Positions 43,185-58,869 of a stretch of 64,000 nucleotides of DNA are shown here, piece by piece (the first letter of the stretch is position 1; each line of letters opens with the position of its first letter). The DNA is from Fibrobacter sp. UWH4. GTDB lineage: Bacteria > Fibrobacterota > Fibrobacteria > Fibrobacterales > Fibrobacteraceae. The stretch is taken from contig NZ_FRAY01000005.1 in NCBI RefSeq assembly GCF_900142475.1, positions 248,001 through 312,000 of the forward strand. Direction: 5' to 3'. The notes under the pieces were generated by a model. It was not told where the DNA came from, ran no database searches, and saw only the letters and a list, made by a program, of their open reading frames with translations. The translations under genes were made by a program, and so were the position numbers.

Positions 43185-46100
43185 ATGGCTTTGTTTCGCG
43201 AAGTAGATAAAAACGAGACGTTCCCTGATATTGAGGAACGAGTTCTTACCTTGTGGGATAAGGATGAATCGTTCAAGAAGTCGCTGGACTCCCGTCCGGA
43301 AACTGAACCGTACACTTTCTACGATGGCCCTCCGTTTGCAACGGGCCTTCCGCACTACGGTCACTTGCTTGCCGGTACCATCAAGGATATCGTTCCGCGT
43401 TACTGGACCATGAAGGGCAAGAAGGTTCCCCGCGGTTTCGGTTGGGACTGCCACGGCCTTCCGATTGAATCTCTCGTGCAGAACGAACTCGGTCTCGCGG
43501 GCGTTGCCGAAATCCAGAAGCTCGGCGTCGACAAGTTCAACGAAACCTGCCGCGGCAAGGTGCTCAAGTACACCAGCGAATGGAAGAAGACGGTGCGCCG
43601 CATGGGCCGCTGGGTGGACTTCGACAAGGGCTACAAGACCATGGACAAGAACTTCATGGAATCTGTGTGGTGGGTGTTCAAGCAGTGCTTCGACAAGGGC
43701 CTCATCTACCAGGGCTACCGCATCCAGCCGTATAGCCCGGCGCTTGCCACTCCGCTTTCGAACTTCGAAACGAACCAGGGCTATAAGGACCGTCAGGACC
43801 CGTCACTCACGCTGATTTTCCCGATCAACTCGAACGAGCCCAAGTTCAAGGATACGAGCATCCTCGTGTGGACGACGACCCCGTGGACGCTTTACTCCAA
43901 CTTCTGCATCGTTGTGGGCCCGGACATGGACTACAACCTGGTGGAACAGGACGGCAAGAAGTACTGGATTGCCGCAAGCCGTACCGCCGCCTACTTCAAG
44001 AACCCGAACATCGTGGATACCTGCAAGGGTTCCGAACTCGTGGGCAAGGACTACGAGCCGCTCTCCCGCATTTCCGATGCGTTTGTGACGCCGGACCAGC
44101 TGTCCCGCCACTACAAGATTTACCCGGCCGACTACGTGAGTACCGAAGACGGTACCGGCGCCGTGCATACCGCTCCATCCTTCGGTGAAGAAGACTTCCA
44201 GAAGGGCGCAGAACTCGACCTCGGCCTTTTCGACCCGCTGGATACCGAAGGCAAGTTCACCGACAAGGTCCCGATGTGGAAGGGCCTGGGTGCCAAGGAA
44301 GCCGACAAGGAAATTATCCGCTACTTCAAGGAACAGGGCCGCGTGTTCAAGCAGGACGTGATTGTCCATAGCTACCCGCACTGCTGGCGTACCGGCGTTC
44401 CTCTGATTTACCGCGCCCTCAAGACTTGGTTCCTGAAGATTGACGCCCCTGTCACGAGCAAGGACGGCGTGACCAAGACTCTGAAGGAATGGATGGTCGA
44501 AAACAACCAGACCGTGAACTGGGTGCCGGACCACATCAAGAACGGACGCTTTGGCAAGTGGCTCGAAGGCGCCCGCGACTGGAACCTTTCCCGTAACCGC
44601 TTCTGGGGTACGCCGATTCCGGTGTGGCTCAGCGACGACGGCGACATGATTGCCGTGGGCAGCATCGAAGAATTGCAGCAACTCACTGGCGTGAAGCTCG
44701 ATGACTTGCACAAGCATTTTGTGGACAAGCTTACCATTGAAAAGGACGGCAAGGTTTACCGCCGCACGCCTGAAGTGTTCGACTGCTGGTTCGAATCCGG
44801 CTCCATGCCGTATGCCAGCCGCCATTACCCGTTCGAAAACAAGGAACTGGTGGAACGCAGCTTCCCGGCGGACTTCATCGCCGAAGGCCTCGACCAGACC
44901 CGCGGTTGGTTCTACACGCTGACGGTGCTTTCTAACGCTTTGTTCCAAAAGCCCGCATTCAAGAACGTGATTGTGAACGGTATCATCTTGGCCGAAGACG
45001 GTTCCAAGATGAGCAAGTCCAAGCGCAACTACCCGGACCCGAACGACCTCATCGAACGCACGGGTGCCGACGCAATTCGCTTGTTCATGATCAACTCCGC
45101 CGCTTTGAAGGCTGAAGACCTCCGCTTCAGCGAAGAAGGCGTGAAGGGCATCGTGAAGCAGGTGATGTTGCCGCTCTGGAACGCCGTGGCATTCTTTGTG
45201 TCTAACCACAACGCCGACGCTGCCAAGGGCCAGCTCAACTGGAAGCCGGGTCAGGAAGTCAAGAGCGAAAACGAACTTGACCGCTGGATGCTTGCAACGC
45301 TGCAGGATTTGGCCGCCAAGGTCGAAGTGGAAATGAAGGCTTACCGCCTGTACAACGTGGTGCCCGCCGTGATTGCCGCGGTGGATGACCTCACGAACTG
45401 GTACGTGCGCCGCAGCCGTCGCCGTTTCTGGAAGAGCGAAAACGATGGCGACAAGAATGCCGCCTACGCCACCATGTACAAGGTGCTGGTGGACTTTTCC
45501 AAGATTCTCGCTCCGTTCCTCCCGCTCCTCGCCGAAGAAATCTACCAGATTCTCGTTCGCGAAGTCGATGCCAACGCTCCGGTGAGCGTACACCTCTGCG
45601 AATTCCCGAGCGCCGACAAGTCCCTGATGGACGAAAAGCTTGTGGAACGCATCGCCATGGTGCGTGGCATGGTCGAAATGGGCCGCGTGATTCGCGCTAC
45701 GAACAACGTAAAGAACCGTATGCCGATTGCCAGCATGACGGTCGTTGCTCATGGCACCGAAGAAAAGAATGTTGCTGAAACGATGAAGGACTTGATCCTC
45801 GAAGAACTCAATGTTCGCGAAATGAAGTTCCTCGAAGATGAGACGAAACTCGTGAAACTTTCCGCCAAGCCGAACTTCCTTGCCATCAAGGCGAAGGGCC
45901 CGGATTACGCGAAGAACATGAAGGTGATTTCTGCCAAGCTCAACAGCCTCTCGGTTGACGAAATCAAGGCTCTGCAGAATGGCGAAACCATCAAGTTCGA
46001 CTTCGGTGAAGTCGGTGCCGATTGCCTGATGCTTAACCGCATCGTGGCCGATGGCATGGCCGTGGAAGCCAACCAGCACTTCACCGTGGCTCTGGACTTG

Positions 46101-46373: not shown

Positions 46374-46401
46374 GCCTCGAAGCCAACGACGCTGATGGTG
46401 A

Positions 46402-46508
46402 CAACTGCAAAAGGCGAGAGTCGCGACCGTGCTTGCACGGGCATGACCGAGCCGCAGCAGTTGGTGCTCGAAGAGCACAGCCTTTCAGCTTTACGACGGT
46501 TAAGGCTT
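46402..46508 (+). repeat. Structured hairpin module, copy B (left edge of island)
   Basis: It starts 28 bases after the ileS stop. Outer stem CAACTGC/GCAGTTG (46402-46408 with 46457-46463); inner helix GGC/GCC and GTC/GAC with GAGA opposite CGA; apical hairpin CCGTGC-TT-GCACGG (46427-46440); side hairpin GTGCTC-GAA-GAGCAC (46464-46478); a further stem AGCCTT/AAGGCT (46479-46484 with 46502-46507). Bases 46411-46484 are identical to copy C at 73 of 74 positions. Confidence 0.8.
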
Positions 46509-46537
46509 AATCAAAGAGAATGGTTTAAATCAAAAAT

Positions 46538-46625: not shown

Positions 46626-48173
46626 ATGGGTGATATAAAAGTATTCATCAGCAGTGTTCAGCGAGAGTTTGCTTGCGAACGACGACTCTTGTGCGATTAT
46701 ATCCGGACGGATTCCCTGCTCGGTCGATTCTTTGTGCCGTTTATTTTTGAGGATATGCCTGCATCCGAGGTTTCTGCACAAAAGGCGTATCTTGCTCAAG
46801 CTGCCGAAAGCCATATTTATTTGGGTATTTTCGGCACGCAATACGGCTACGAGGACTCTGAGGGCGTTTCACCCACGGAACGTGAATACGATACAGCAAA
46901 GGCTCATTTTGTACATCGGTTGGTGTACACGTTGCGAACTGAATCCAAGCGAGAGCCAAAGGAACAAGTTTTTGTAAAGAAGGTCGAGCAGGAACTTGTT
47001 CGTCGCAGCTTTACCACCTACGAAGAACTGCGCACTGCTGTTTACAACTCCCTCATTGATTATCTGGAACAAAAGGAATTCATTCGTAAGGCTCCCTTTG
47101 ATGCTGCGGCTCATCCGGTTGCAACTTACGATGATATTGACCCTGAGCGGGTGCGGACATTCATCAACAGGGCAAAGGAAAAACGCAATTTCCCGCTGAC
47201 ATTTGCCGATGGTATGGAAAAGATTTTTTCGGGCATACATGTATTGACGGATGACGGTCGCTTGACAAATTCAGCTCTACTCCTTTTTGCCAAGGATCCG
47301 CAACGGTTCTTCCGCACATCGGAGGTTCGCTGCGCTCAGTTCTATGGCACAAAAGTGGAAAAACCCATCCGCAATTATCAAGTGTTCGCTGGTTCGCTCT
47401 TTGAGATGATAGATAAGGCCGTTGGTTTCGTAATGTCGCGTATAGACGCTCGCGTGGGTACTCGCGACCATTCGGCGGATGCTCCTGTGGATTACGAATT
47501 GCCGGAAAGTGCCGTGGCAGAAGCTATTGCCAATGCCGTTGCGCATCGTGACTATACCAGCAATGCCAGCGTGCAGGTGATGCTTTTTCGTGATCGTGTC
47601 GAGATTTGGAACCCTGGACGGCTTCCCGATGGTTTTACTGTACAGAAACTGCGTGAAATGCATTCGTCTGAGCCCACAAATCCCGTCATTGCGCACCCGT
47701 TGTTCCTTGCCGGCTATATTGAGCATTTGGGAACAGGAACGACCGATTTGATAGCGGCCTGTGAACAATATGGTCTCCAGACACCGGAATTTTACCAGGC
47801 AGAAGACTTCCGCACGGTCATATATCGTAAGACAAAGGTGTCAGACCCCGATGAAAAAGTAACCAACTCCAGCGAAAAGGTAACCAACCTTGACAAAAAA
47901 GTAACCAACTTAGGCGGGGAAGTAACCAAGCATGGTGGAAAAGGTGATAAAATGCGTCTTACTGCCAAGCAGCAAAAGGTACTGGAATTTTGCAATGAAA
48001 TGCCCCGAACGGCACAAGAAATTTTGGACATGTTAGGCGTGAAAAATCAAACAAAGACCCGTCAGCAATATACTACCAAATTGGTTATGATGGGTATGCT
48101 TCGCCCGACTACCACGGCTTCCCATGATCCAAACCGCAAATACATCACGTCGCATGGCGAACGGGATGATTAA
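46626..48173 (+). CDS. DUF4062 / HATPase_c_4 (AAA_4-associated) protein with winged-helix C-terminus
   Basis: 515 residues with a GAAGAGAG site before the ATG. Residues about 3-100 are DUF4062 (VFISSVQREFACERR, IYLGIFGTQYGYED), a TIR/SEFIR-like fold. Residues about 180-395 resemble the putative transcriptional regulators with a C-terminal GHKL-type domain (LPESAVAEAIANAVAHRDY, VEIWNPGRLPDG, HLGTGTTDLI). Four 7-residue repeats of KVTN type follow (about 412-439), then a winged helix (TAKQQKVLEFCNEMPRTAQEIL). DUF4062 proteins occur in defence and signalling contexts. The usual AlbA_2 domain with GExxxxEFK is replaced by DUF4062. First gene of the island. Confidence 0.75.
   Translation: MGDIKVFISSVQREFACERRLLCDYIRTDSLLGRFFVPFIFEDMPASEVSAQKAYLAQAAESHIYLGIFGTQYGYEDSEGVSPTEREYDTAKAHFVHRLVYTLRTESKREPKEQVFVKKVEQELVRRSFTTYEELRTAVYNSLIDYLEQKEFIRKAPFDAAAHPVATYDDIDPERVRTFINRAKEKRNFPLTFADGMEKIFSGIHVLTDDGRLTNSALLLFAKDPQRFFRTSEVRCAQFYGTKVEKPIRNYQVFAGSLFEMIDKAVGFVMSRIDARVGTRDHSADAPVDYELPESAVAEAIANAVAHRDYTSNASVQVMLFRDRVEIWNPGRLPDGFTVQKLREMHSSEPTNPVIAHPLFLAGYIEHLGTGTTDLIAACEQYGLQTPEFYQAEDFRTVIYRKTKVSDPDEKVTNSSEKVTNLDKKVTNLGGEVTKHGGKGDKMRLTAKQQKVLEFCNEMPRTAQEILDMLGVKNQTKTRQQYTTKLVMMGMLRPTTTASHDPNRKYITSHGERDD
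47859..47942 (+). repeat. 21-nt in-gene tandem repeat (KVTN heptads)
   Basis: GTAACCAA recurs at 47859, 47880, 47901 and 47922, an exact 21-base period that encodes seven-residue units beginning KVTN or EVTK. It lies in the linker between the HATPase-like domain and the winged helix, and copy number may vary between strains. Confidence 0.8.
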
Positions 48174-48240: not shown

Positions 48241-48262
48241 AAAAACGCTCGTTTTTGTAAAC
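48241..48262 (+). terminator. A/T-rich hairpin after the DUF4062 gene
   Basis: CAAAAACG-CT-CGTTTTTG is a perfect eight-pair hairpin within an AT-rich stretch about 70 bases after the stop. T-rich sequence follows a few bases later. It is a likely terminator, though not a classical one. Confidence 0.45.
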
Positions 48263-48351
48263 TTTTAGGACTTTTTTCTCGTTTTTATGTTATTTTTTAA
48301 AGAGTAAAAGAGTTTTTGCTCTTGTTCTCTAGATGAAATGTGCAAATTTCA

Positions 48352-48553
48352 AATAACCGAGGACAAGACGAACGCTCACGCAGGTATGCCGTTTTTGCGG
48401 TATGCTTCAGTTTGTCGTACCGACTTTTTGGTCGGTCTTTGGTCGTATAGACCAAGGGCAACAGCCCTTTTGGGGCGTGGGTCGTTTGTGTTTATCGGTT
48501 ATTAGGCATGCACAGCCTCATCTAGGTAAATGCAACGATCTGCGCCTTTTTTT
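48352..48553 (+). ncRNA. Probable structured RNA in the island
   Basis: A perfect closing stem AATAACCGA/TCGGTTATT (48352-48360 with 48495-48503) encloses CGAACG/CGTTTG and CACGC/GCGTG helices. Inside are four successive hairpins: GTATGCCG/CGGTATGC (48384-48405), ACCGAC/GTCGGT (48419-48436), TTGGTC-GTATA-GACCAA (48439-48455) and GGGC-AACA-GCCC (48456-48467). A short stem and seven T follow at 48547-48553, which fits an intrinsic terminator. No ribosome binding site or plausible protein reading covers it. It lies about 100 bases before the next gene. Expression is not shown. Confidence 0.55.
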
Positions 48554-48653
48554 GTATTCTCTCGAAAATTGGCTTGGCTTCCGAGTGGAACAAGACATAA
48601 TCTCGCCAAATCATAAACTTAAACGGCTTGATACATCAAAGGAGTCAGCTATC

Positions 48654-49355
48654 ATGGAATTTTCAATTCAAGGAAAGACCCTATCTTTTTCCGACAACCA
48701 GATTGAAATCGCAAAAATATTGAAGCATTACCATAAGTTGGCTTCGGAGGGCAGAGAGGTTGCTAGAGTTCTTCTTATTGCAAGAAAATTCACTCCTATT
48801 CAATTTGTAAAAAACGGCGATAACTTTGCTTTGGCTATTATCGGTTCTTATGGAGAGCAGGTTATCCAGGATTTTATCAATAAGGGCTTTTTCTCTTATG
48901 ATGAAAGTAAACTAAAGAAAGATTTTGAAGATACGTTTAATTTCAACGATGAATGGGAAGAGCTTATTGCTCCAATGGTTGAAATCATACAAAAGAACCA
49001 AGACACGCAGTTGTATCGAGAATTCCGCAAAGAAGAACGTGGACGTGTCGTTGGCGGGGGATTTGGCTTGGAAGGCGCCTTGAAAGGTTTTGTTGCTGCA
49101 GGTGCTTTGAATATGGCATCCGATATTGGACACAGCATATTCAATAGTATTGCAAATGCAATTGATGAAACTTCGCAAGAAACACAACTTAAAGAACTTT
49201 TCAATGAAGATCTTATTGATGATTATCTTGAACTTGTTTATGATGGAATTTACTCTTTTGGAAAGGTGTTCGTTCAAAAGTTGGTAGATTACGATTTTAT
49301 GGATCCTGATGATTTGGGTAATTTATTCAATGAAGGTAAACAGAAAGAGTATTGA
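48654..49355 (+). CDS. Unrecognised island protein
   Basis: 233 residues from the ATG at 48654, with GGAG 9 bases upstream. A longer frame back to 48402 would run through the structured RNA and is unlikely. The protein is mostly helical and acidic, with a central glycine-rich hydrophobic stretch (GGGFGLEGALKGFVAAGALN, about residues 135-155) that could insert in a membrane or form a hairpin between helices. It ends KQKEY with TGA, and the same frame stays open after the stop into the next gene. I recognise no family. Composition is AT-rich. Confidence 0.7.
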   Translation: MEFSIQGKTLSFSDNQIEIAKILKHYHKLASEGREVARVLLIARKFTPIQFVKNGDNFALAIIGSYGEQVIQDFINKGFFSYDESKLKKDFEDTFNFNDEWEELIAPMVEIIQKNQDTQLYREFRKEERGRVVGGGFGLEGALKGFVAAGALNMASDIGHSIFNSIANAIDETSQETQLKELFNEDLIDDYLELVYDGIYSFGKVFVQKLVDYDFMDPDDLGNLFNEGKQKEY

Positions 49356-49403
49356 TCCATTTTTCTTAATCTTTTAAAAAATCGAATTCCCGAAACAGAA
49401 CGC

Positions 49404-50276
49404 GTGAATGTTGCGTTGCATTTGATTGAATGTTCTCCATATGAACATGGCGAGTATTACGAATACTTGAAAAAGAATGTTGCAGACCATGATGCCGATC
49501 AAGTAGTCGCAATGAAGTCAATGATGTATGCTCGCAATAGTCGGTATGCTCTATCTGACTTTTCGGAAGATGTCGTGAAGCCAACGGAATTTGATATCGC
49601 AGTGGGTCAAAAAATTGAAAAAACATACGGCATTAGAATTCCAATTTTGTTCGAAGGAAAGAAAGAACAGCCTAAGGTCGAAAAGAAAGAAGTGAAAACA
49701 TCATCTTCTGTTGAACAGAAAAAAGATGCCGAAATTTCTCAGGCAAAAGCCCCTGAGAAGACATCTATATTTACGGCTATTCATGGATGTACTTGGTTTG
49801 TAGTGGTGGCTGTTGCGATTGCAATTGCTTTAAATTACTATAATCATCCGATTCTAAGCAATCTAAGTCTTCTTGTGACGATGGCGGTTGACTTTTTCAT
49901 AATTGGCATTGGTATTTTTGCAATTGCAGATATGTGGGGACATATAACGAATCAAAAGCAGACGATTTTTGAAGAAATGGGGAAAAATTCGGATTCGGTC
50001 TTTTTTGCCAAAGCTTCAGGAGGAAGTTTTGTCATAACTTTGATAACTCTAATTATGTTTGTTGTAATGCTGTTTATTTGCAGGATTCACTATTTTACAA
50101 TCACGTTTTGGTTTATGGTTGCGGCAGGATTAATTAATTTGTTGATTCTTCCGTTTATTGTGTTGTTTGGACTAAAAAATCTTGGAGATTCTGCAAAGAA
50201 AAAAAGTTCCCAAAATAAACAAAAAGAAAGGCGGAATGACAAAGAAATTAGCGTAGAAAAAGAGAATGAAAAATAA
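49404..50276 (+). CDS. Unrecognised island membrane protein, in frame with the gene before it
   Basis: 290 residues from a GTG at 49404 without a clear ribosome binding site. The frame is open back to the TGA of the preceding gene (49353-49355), and the 16 intervening codons contain no ATG, GTG or TTG yet read like protein (IFLNLLKNRIPETER). The soluble part (1-120) is charged, with a Lys/Glu-rich linker. Four hydrophobic segments follow (about 130-250), then a basic tail. The possible explanations are a rare start such as ATT at 49359, a TGA that broke an original fusion, or readthrough. Confidence 0.6.
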   Translation: MNVALHLIECSPYEHGEYYEYLKKNVADHDADQVVAMKSMMYARNSRYALSDFSEDVVKPTEFDIAVGQKIEKTYGIRIPILFEGKKEQPKVEKKEVKTSSSVEQKKDAEISQAKAPEKTSIFTAIHGCTWFVVVAVAIAIALNYYNHPILSNLSLLVTMAVDFFIIGIGIFAIADMWGHITNQKQTIFEEMGKNSDSVFFAKASGGSFVITLITLIMFVVMLFICRIHYFTITFWFMVAAGLINLLILPFIVLFGLKNLGDSAKKKSSQNKQKERRNDKEISVEKENEK

Positions 50277-51103: not shown

Positions 51104-51148
51104 GAAGAACTCAACGTTCGCGAAATGAAGTTCCTCGGAGACGACAAA
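51104..51148 (+). pseudogene. Internal fragment of ileS at the right end of the island
   Basis: 51104-51137 matches ileS 45801-45834 with a single mismatch over 34 bases, and weaker similarity runs on for about 10 bases. It encodes [11 protein letters not shown] in the same order as ileS. It runs directly into module C, whereas in the true ileS locus about 570 bases separate this segment from module B. Confidence 0.75.
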
Positions 51149-51248
51149 TGTGTAAGGCGAGAGTCGCGACCGTGCTTGCACGGGCATGACCGAGCCGCAG
51201 CAGTTGGTGCTCGAAGAGTACAGCCTTCAGCATCACGACGGTTAAGGC
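51145..51248 (+). repeat. Structured hairpin module, copy C (right edge of island)
   Basis: It has the same architecture as copy B: inner helix GGC/GCC, apical CCGTGC-TT-GCACGG, side hairpin GTGCTC-GAA-GAGTAC with one G-T pair, and GCCTT/AAGGC. The outer stem has one mismatch (CAAATGT against GCAGTTG) because its left arm adjoins the ileS fragment. Bases 51154-51227 match copy B at 73 of 74 positions. Confidence 0.8.
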
Positions 51249-51298
51249 ATAGCAAAGATCGCTGAGCTTGCCAAAGCGCTAAAGTGAAAAAATCTGAG

Positions 51299-58406: not shown

Positions 58407-58450
58407 AATGAATGTCCTCTTGTTTTTTTTGAAAAATTGATTTTATCATA

Positions 58451-58828
58451 AGCTCCGGACTCGAATCCCCGAGGGTTTGCAAGCCGCTGGCTCCAATTAT
58501 TATTAAGCTCCGGACTCGAATCCCCGAGGGTTTGCAAGCCGCTGGCTCCAATTATTATTAAGCTCCGGACTCGAATCCCCGAGGGTTTGCAAGCCGCTGG
58601 CTCCAATTATTATTAAGCTCCGGACTCGAATCCCCGAGGGTTTGCAAGCCGCTGGCTCCAATTATTATTAAGCTCCGGACTCGAATCCCCGAGGGTTTGC
58701 AAGCCGCTGGCTCCAATTATTATTAAGCTCCGGACTCGAATCCCCGAGGGTTTGCAAGCCGCTGGCTCCAATTATTATTAAGCTCCGGACTTGAATCCTT
58801 GAGGGATTGCAAGCCACTGGCTCCGATT
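58451..58828. repeat. 55-bp tandem repeat array, seven units
   Basis: Units begin at 58451, 58506, 58561, 58616, 58671, 58726 and 58781, each starting AGCTCCGGACTCGAATCC. The first six are identical over 55 bases and the last has several substitutions. Each unit contains a GGA-CTCGAA-TCC arm that resembles a tRNA T-arm, an AGCC-GCT-GGCT hairpin and an AT-rich end (ATTATTATTA). There are no variable spacers. The array lies upstream of the small acidic gene. Confidence 0.95.
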
Positions 58829-58869
58829 ATATGTACTTAGACGTTAGAGTCGCTTGACTTATCGGTCAG

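Follow-up and report, generated by a model that had tools for sequence, protein, structure and literature searches.

The DNA analysed here (hereafter, the window) is a 64,000-nucleotide stretch of Fibrobacter sp. UWH4 (NZ_FRAY01000005.1, positions 248,001-312,000, forward strand). At a site downstream of ileS, the window carries a gene that was named DUF4062 in an initial sequence-only reading, a structured element located at approximately 48320-48553 on the plus strand, and a gene for a 233-aa protein for which no Pfam match was found (see the table for coordinates). The frame that opens with this last gene continues to 50276 past an in-frame TGA at 49353-49355 (K-E-Y-stop-S-I-F-L...), and the stretch 48654-50276 is either two genes or one gene with a nonsense change. 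The leader unit that contains the structured element belongs to the downstream gene and not to the upstream DUF4062 gene.

Features of the leader and the flanking genes in the window
Feature	Position	Strand	Remarks
DUF4062 gene (name from the sequence-only reading)	46626-48173	+	upstream ORF; outside the leader unit
Promoter-like block, TTTGTAAACTTTT ... TTTTTATGTTATTTTTTAAAGAG	48251-48313	+	found conserved before the leader across 32 aligned copies; consensus only
H5, 5' hairpin arm	48320-48329	+	pairs with 48359-48368 in the terminator state
P1 5' strand, CTAGATGA, variable tag	48329-48336	+	partner TCATCTAG, 48518-48525
Hairpin HA (GAAAT...ATTTC)	48335-48350	+	presents the P2 5' strand; GAAA/TTTC nearly invariant, loop variable
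P2, TGTGCA / TGCACA	48339-48344 / 48509-48514	+	99% paired
P3 5' strand, AATAACCGA, variable tag; nine-pair stem of the sequence-only reading	48352-48360	+	partner TCGGTTATT, 48495-48503
P4 5' strand, antiterminator	48365-48381	+	partner 48475-48492
Variable middle domain	48382-48471	+	four hairpins (48382-48407, 48419-48436, 48439-48455, 48456-48467); from the fold
Near-invariant switch strand	48473-48497	+	alternative partners P4 and the terminator 3' arm; from alignments
B segment (P3 3' strand, HB, P1 3' strand)	48495-48525	+	from cognate versus non-cognate pairing
Hairpin HB, GGC / GCC	48505-48507 / 48515-48517	+	P2 3' strand (48509-48514) in the loop
Terminator 3' arm	48525-48547	+
T-run	48547-48553	+
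Shine-Dalgarno GGAG of the gene behind the leader	48641-48644	+	from sequence
Gene behind the leader	48654-49355	+	ATG at 48654; 233-aa protein

On the plus strand, 48352-48553 is predicted to fold at -85.2 kcal/mol, compared to -56.2 ± 4.1 for shuffled sequences (z = -7.2), far more stable than the shuffled controls; the extended stretch 48320-48560 reaches z = -8.0, and the mean z over 40 sampled copies is -6.4. The minus strand was rejected as the RNA on account of its much weaker fold (z = -3.7). The nine-pair stem, the four consecutive hairpins and the terminal T-run described in the sequence-only reading were all borne out. The start of the element was corrected: the 32 bases upstream of 48352 that had been left out provide one arm of a 5' hairpin and one strand each, in both cases the 5' one, of two additional long-range helices. 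The closing helices and the terminator cannot all form simultaneously, the switch strand having two alternative partners. The view of the RNA as non-coding stands: no reading frame is conserved across copies, and leader lengths are spread over all three frame classes, which rules out a coding explanation. The ribosome-binding site of the neighbouring gene indeed lies downstream of the RNA, because the RNA is the leader of that gene. The general picture of a structured, dispersed regulatory RNA close to island and defence genes is supported; what had to be replaced is the notion of a free-standing RNA beside orphan genes, given that the element acts in cis as a 5' leader whose terminator is switchable, with a promoter-like block before it and a gene after it.

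Fibrobacteraceae are important degraders of plant fibre in the gut. To trace the element in this family, we used a covariance model of its 3' half (R1) and a genome sample that consists mostly of metagenome bins. The element was detected in 60 of the 61 sampled genomes of the genus, among them all 29 with a completeness of at least 90% and a contamination of no more than 5%, and three other genera of the family have it as well; outside the family, R1 yielded only three weak matches (E values of 5e-7 to 1e-5). The UWH4 genome contains 14 copies (three reverse-strand echoes left out), as expected of the dispersed element that the sequence-only reading had considered, and rumen and gut Fibrobacter have about a dozen copies per genome, most of which precede genes for DNA modification or defence or further exchangeable genes. 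Most copies are tens to hundreds of kb apart, with a few pairs at 1.4-2.8 kb that represent two leaders in one locus. Core matches also occur on short contigs labelled Paludibacteraceae, Bacteroidales, Bacilli and Lachnospiraceae (L058, L060, L066, L106, L131); several of these contigs carry a full leader, and they probably are misbinned Fibrobacteraceae. Neither the window nor 13 diverse loci matched Rfam at the gathering score, and a relaxed threshold produced chance matches only; no published description of the element was found in the literature searched, which did not include the 224 candidate RNAs catalogued in 2017. None of 2.9 million viral contigs contains the exact core pattern, and a viral origin was rejected on this ground.

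The 110 extracted copies share one plan: the promoter-like block, the H5 arm, P1, HA, P3, P4 (ACGAACGCTCACG) and the middle domain are followed by the near-invariant switch strand (GGGGCGTGGGTCGTTTGYGTTTATC), the P3 partner, HB, the P1 partner, the terminator 3' arm and the T-run. Several subtypes have a TATATTT-like box upstream of the leader. The middle domain spans 54-167 nt in most copies and shrinks to 6-8 nt in a minimal subtype (L006, L007, L042 and others). The start codon, usually accompanied by a Shine-Dalgarno-like site, mostly lies 50-110 nt past the leader; in leaders that carry a second 5' half (see below), it is found 240-390 nt on.

The central feature of the element is that the switch strand can pair either upstream, forming an antiterminator, or downstream, forming an intrinsic terminator with the T-run. 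Both structures are conserved and of similar stability: among the 23 aligned long copies, 99.4% of cells are paired in the terminator stem (48473-48496 with 48525-48547) and 99.5% in P4. In both helices, it is mostly by G-U changes that pairing is maintained, in keeping with the two pairing duties of the switch strand; H5 (98% of cells paired, 23 copies) likewise changes largely via G-U. When leaders were cut before the terminator 3' arm, the P4 antiterminator was predicted in 110 of 110 copies; for the full-length leaders, the terminator was favoured in 42 and the antiterminator in 68, the energy gap between the two structures averaging -5.2 ± 4.9 kcal/mol, all these predictions being thermodynamic and ignoring pseudoknots, proteins and kinetics. 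The leader thus places an intrinsic terminator, stem and T-run included, between the promoter-like block and the gene, and an antiterminator that is mutually exclusive with it on the same strand, P4 occupying 48475-48492.

The alternative pairings, together with the antiterminator-first order of folding, make a transcription attenuator the best-supported reading, and we consider it likely, judging from the alignments and predicted folds, that the element is a cis-acting attenuator in the promoter-proximal 5' leader of an exchangeable accessory gene. During transcription, the A segment (the 5' strands of P1, HA, P3 and P4) would pair with the B segment (P4', P3', HB and P1'), yielding an antiterminator closed by a four-way junction in which the two hairpin loops could kiss. 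The terminator 3' arm, once made, would compete for the shared switch strand and, should the terminator win, transcription would end at the T-run, which lies about 100 nt short of the gene. It is through such folding that the two structures are expected to terminate transcription or let it read through in the cell.

The helices that join A and B carry a tag specific to each copy. Although the sequences of P1, P2 and P3 are very different from one copy to the next, their covariation is nearly perfect: both sides have changed in 6 of the 8 pairs of P1 (92% of cells paired), 4 of the 6 pairs of P2 and 7 of the 9 pairs of P3, counts that are approximate given that P2 and the outer P3 pairs are off by one base in some rows of the MAFFT alignment used. 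The covariation score of the antiterminator helices is 0.42, far above the shuffled (0.145 ± 0.011) and slid (at most 0.10) controls. Across 94 copies from seven genomes, cognate A-B pairing is predicted at -35.9 ± 3.0 kcal/mol compared to -15.6 ± 4.4 kcal/mol for non-cognate pairs within one genome; only 10 of the 1210 within-genome non-cognate pairs come near the cognate values, and several of these are artefacts that arose when A segments were selected. Analogously, for 92 distinct loops, the means are -31.9 (cognate) and -13.0 kcal/mol (non-cognate), and 82 of them pair best with their cognate partner. Non-cognate pairing between genomes (-15.9) is about as weak as within genomes (-15.6), so that selection for privacy and drift under a pairing constraint are indistinguishable by this comparison, and the diversity of the tags could reflect drift under structural constraint.

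Each half of the window's tag is unique in its own genome, where no second copy of the tag was found. Sharing does occur elsewhere. Two leaders of the genome G033 with the same tag, L202 (G033:C3:127181) and L207 (G033:C7:97831), precede a Tsp45I-like restriction enzyme and a C5 methyltransferase, one each, possibly reflecting coordination or a recent duplication, and two leaders of G154 with a common tag precede near-identical genes. Two sets of leaders (L201, L234 and L254; L200, L233 and L249) are near-identical across two genera, tag included, with different or diverged genes behind them, which implies that tag sequences can stay stable over long times. One leader (L155:2788-3034) has mismatched 5' and 3' tags and is a recombinant or an assembly chimera.

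In 30 distinct leaders, the 5' half recurs about 65 nt past the terminator with the leader's own tag; these second 5' halves (A2) were called by sequence identity, pairing energy alone having given spurious partners. Such leaders have a long middle domain, and nearly all have the gene 240-390 nt on, mostly a restriction-modification gene; the window copy lacks A2. The predicted pairing of A2 with its own B (-29.1) is much stronger than with other B segments (-16.0; none of 10000 permutations was as good), and in 22 of the 30 leaders A2 is predicted to be a stronger partner than the extracted first copy. Being transcribed only after read-through and still matching B, A2 suggests feedback or a later switch, and it is a candidate antisense-like partner in cis in the restriction-modification leaders.

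The 171 distinct proteins encoded downstream of the leaders form 52 clusters, with classes assigned from cluster representatives and ORFs picked by a simple score, such that a small number of the ORFs could be wrong. The main classes are DNA methyltransferases and restriction enzymes, followed by further defence-like genes and by lipoproteins of Fibrobacter. About 70 of the 171 proteins belong to restriction-modification clusters (C5 methylase, 25; type III Mod, 10; EcoRI methylase, 10; type ISP/IIG, 9; N6 methylase, 8; Tsp45I restriction enzyme, 5; D12 methylase, 3), in line with the link to defence genes suggested at the outset. The remainder includes a 34-member cluster represented by a Fib_succ_major lipoprotein, along with DUF4417, OLD/GajA-like, UvrD-PDDEXK and SNF2 proteins, a GTPase with a LeoBC match, EndoU, PAPS reductase, SPFH and 8xMP. 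Comparison of coordinates by eye in seven genomes places 5 of 7 EcoRI-type methylases behind a leader; judged in the same manner, both C5 methylases of the UWH4 genome and roughly a third of C5 loci overall are so placed, and the Fib_succ_major domains (40-137 matches per genome) mostly lack a leader.

The genes behind the leaders are exchangeable. In pairs of genomes, leaders that are about 93-99% identical precede unrelated genes, the identity ending near the start codon. At the ileS site of G016 (L278), the DUF4062 gene and the leader are present at about 94% identity overall, but the leader differs in its tag and its middle domain and is followed by a lipoprotein gene. G019 (L270, ~633-746 in the reverse complement) contains a single copy of the island-border repeat, like an empty site. 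In the window, the ileS island is bracketed by direct repeats (46400-46517 and 51143-51258; 45801-45841 and 51104-51144), and its right end carries an ileS-internal fragment. Several other islands are flanked on both sides by duplicates of the 3' end of a core gene (L205, L216, L168, L246, L220, L208, L209 and L233); from their translations, we take the duplicated genes to be nifJ, valS, sdhB, carB, ileS and thrS. This is a recurring pattern of insertion in Fibrobacter, possibly via homologous recombination.

For a new host, the acquisition of restriction enzymes or other defence genes is dangerous, and their known controls are mostly protein regulators or antisense RNAs. The reading best supported by the alignments and fold predictions is that the attenuator moves together with exchangeable accessory and defence genes and restrains them: costly or newly acquired genes would be kept low until a signal, or a low level of transcript, permits read-through. 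The downstream genes have no single function in common, and they suggest no effector. The copy-specific tag would keep the folding of each leader private, in which case free A or B segments could act in trans on the nascent leader of the same gene. Such segments might derive from terminated leaders or from A2 on full-length messages, which would constitute self-limiting feedback. That transcript-level feedback through the private tag flips the switch is a tentative proposal to which we assign a rather low probability, and a similarly low one applies to the full version, in which the leaders of a genome would together form mutually orthogonal RNA feedback switches, each addressed to itself by A and B, plus A2 in the restriction-modification leaders, such that the terminated leader or message of a gene would shut off the transcription of that gene only.

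The main rival agrees on attenuation and differs in what decides the switch: the leader would be a riboswitch or a protein-binding leader in which the conserved parts sense a shared ligand (a metabolite, a second messenger or an RNA-binding protein), P1-P3 being structural stems whose sequence can drift provided that they pair. We regard this as unlikely on balance but as a serious contender. Conserved blocks, an exchangeable terminator and antiterminator, and a diverse regulon like those of second-messenger riboswitches are all compatible with such a sensor, as is the observation that non-cognate pairing is no stronger between genomes than within them. Against it, a repeat of the leader's own tag in A2 is unexpected for a merely drifting stem, and no Rfam family matches. 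Furthermore, the middle domain is dispensable, as the minimal forms indicate, which leaves the P4/junction core as the only place for an aptamer, and most of this core is explained by its two pairing duties. It is improbable that the element acts at the DNA level, serving as a site of recombination or insertion (an attC-like site or a small element with inverted repeats) during exchange of the genes behind it, with only apparent RNA helices. The frequent end of identity between genomes at the leader or start codon, with different genes behind, and the direct repeats of core-gene 3' ends at island borders would fit such a site, but homologous recombination between shared leaders suffices for the gene swaps. 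The T-run terminator and the G-U pairs in H5, P4 and the terminator are strand-specific RNA features, the element has a promoter block and a fixed orientation relative to the gene, and copies are single or paired, with no cassette arrays of the kind that characterize integron attC sites.

Even less probable is that the terminated leader serves as a type III-like RNA antitoxin in trans, with the terminator setting the ratio of RNA to message. The layout of RNA, terminator and gene is that of such loci, and nucleases (EndoU, Tsp45I) are among the downstream proteins. However, the 52 clusters behind the leaders are mostly methyltransferases, lipoproteins and membrane proteins, near-identical leaders precede unrelated proteins, and no tandem repeat array was found within the element; the earlier suggestion of an RNA antitoxin or guide is not supported, the downstream genes being too diverse and mostly not toxins. 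A plain terminator of the DUF4062 gene combined with chance palindromes, a reading prompted by the position of the element just downstream of that gene, has a negligible probability: it is refuted by covariation across copies in other contexts, the 14 copies of this genome occur in differing surroundings, and a promoter-like block separates the DUF4062 stop from the RNA.

The attenuator reading places the element in a known general kind, and the copy-tagged arrangement is absent from Rfam and from the literature searched. As in other attenuators and terminator-antiterminator riboswitches, a promoter-proximal leader with a gene behind it contains one strand common to two exclusive structures. 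Unlike attenuators generally, these leaders number a dozen paralogues in each genome, every one of them with its own private tag that covaries, have a regulon of exchangeable defence and surface genes and, in the case of restriction-modification, have a second half with their own tag after the terminator. With antisense attenuators of the pT181 and pIP501 type, they have in common complementary loops, a termination that is set by which strand pairs, and a sequence-specific 'address' that could keep the control of each copy private; the difference is that both partners here are in one transcript, on the chromosome and ahead of accessory rather than replication genes. In the SpnIV tvr locus of Streptococcus pneumoniae, a 19-bp hairpin ahead of the recombinase gene is a terminator-like structure that likewise limits transcription inside a restriction-modification locus, with no antiterminator partner or tag described there (PMC6265443). 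EcoRI and Eco29kI are also subject to RNA-based restraint, which is exerted by antisense transcripts from reverse promoters within genes instead of a structured 5' leader (PMC3874152). The avcID system, described as a type III toxin-antitoxin, has the same order of RNA, terminator and gene (PMC10511110); the leaders described here differ from type III loci in lacking antitoxin repeats and a common toxin family and in being able to form an antiterminator.

If the proposed addressing is real, the private covarying tags would be nature's equivalent of the orthogonal RNA switches designed in synthetic biology, and each acquired restriction-modification or defence gene would have a built-in, cross-talk-free limiter of expression that is retained through gene exchange. 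The switch strand and the covariance model also provide a handle for new defence and other exchangeable genes in Fibrobacteraceae.

Two minor observations concern the surroundings of the leaders. DUF4417 genes are repeatedly found behind leaders that adjoin methyltransferase loci (L250:6055-6726, L255:5614-6342, L194 and others) and may be part of those restriction-modification systems. Further along the window, at 58449-58830, there is a tandem array with a 55-base period and self-matches of 88-98% identity.
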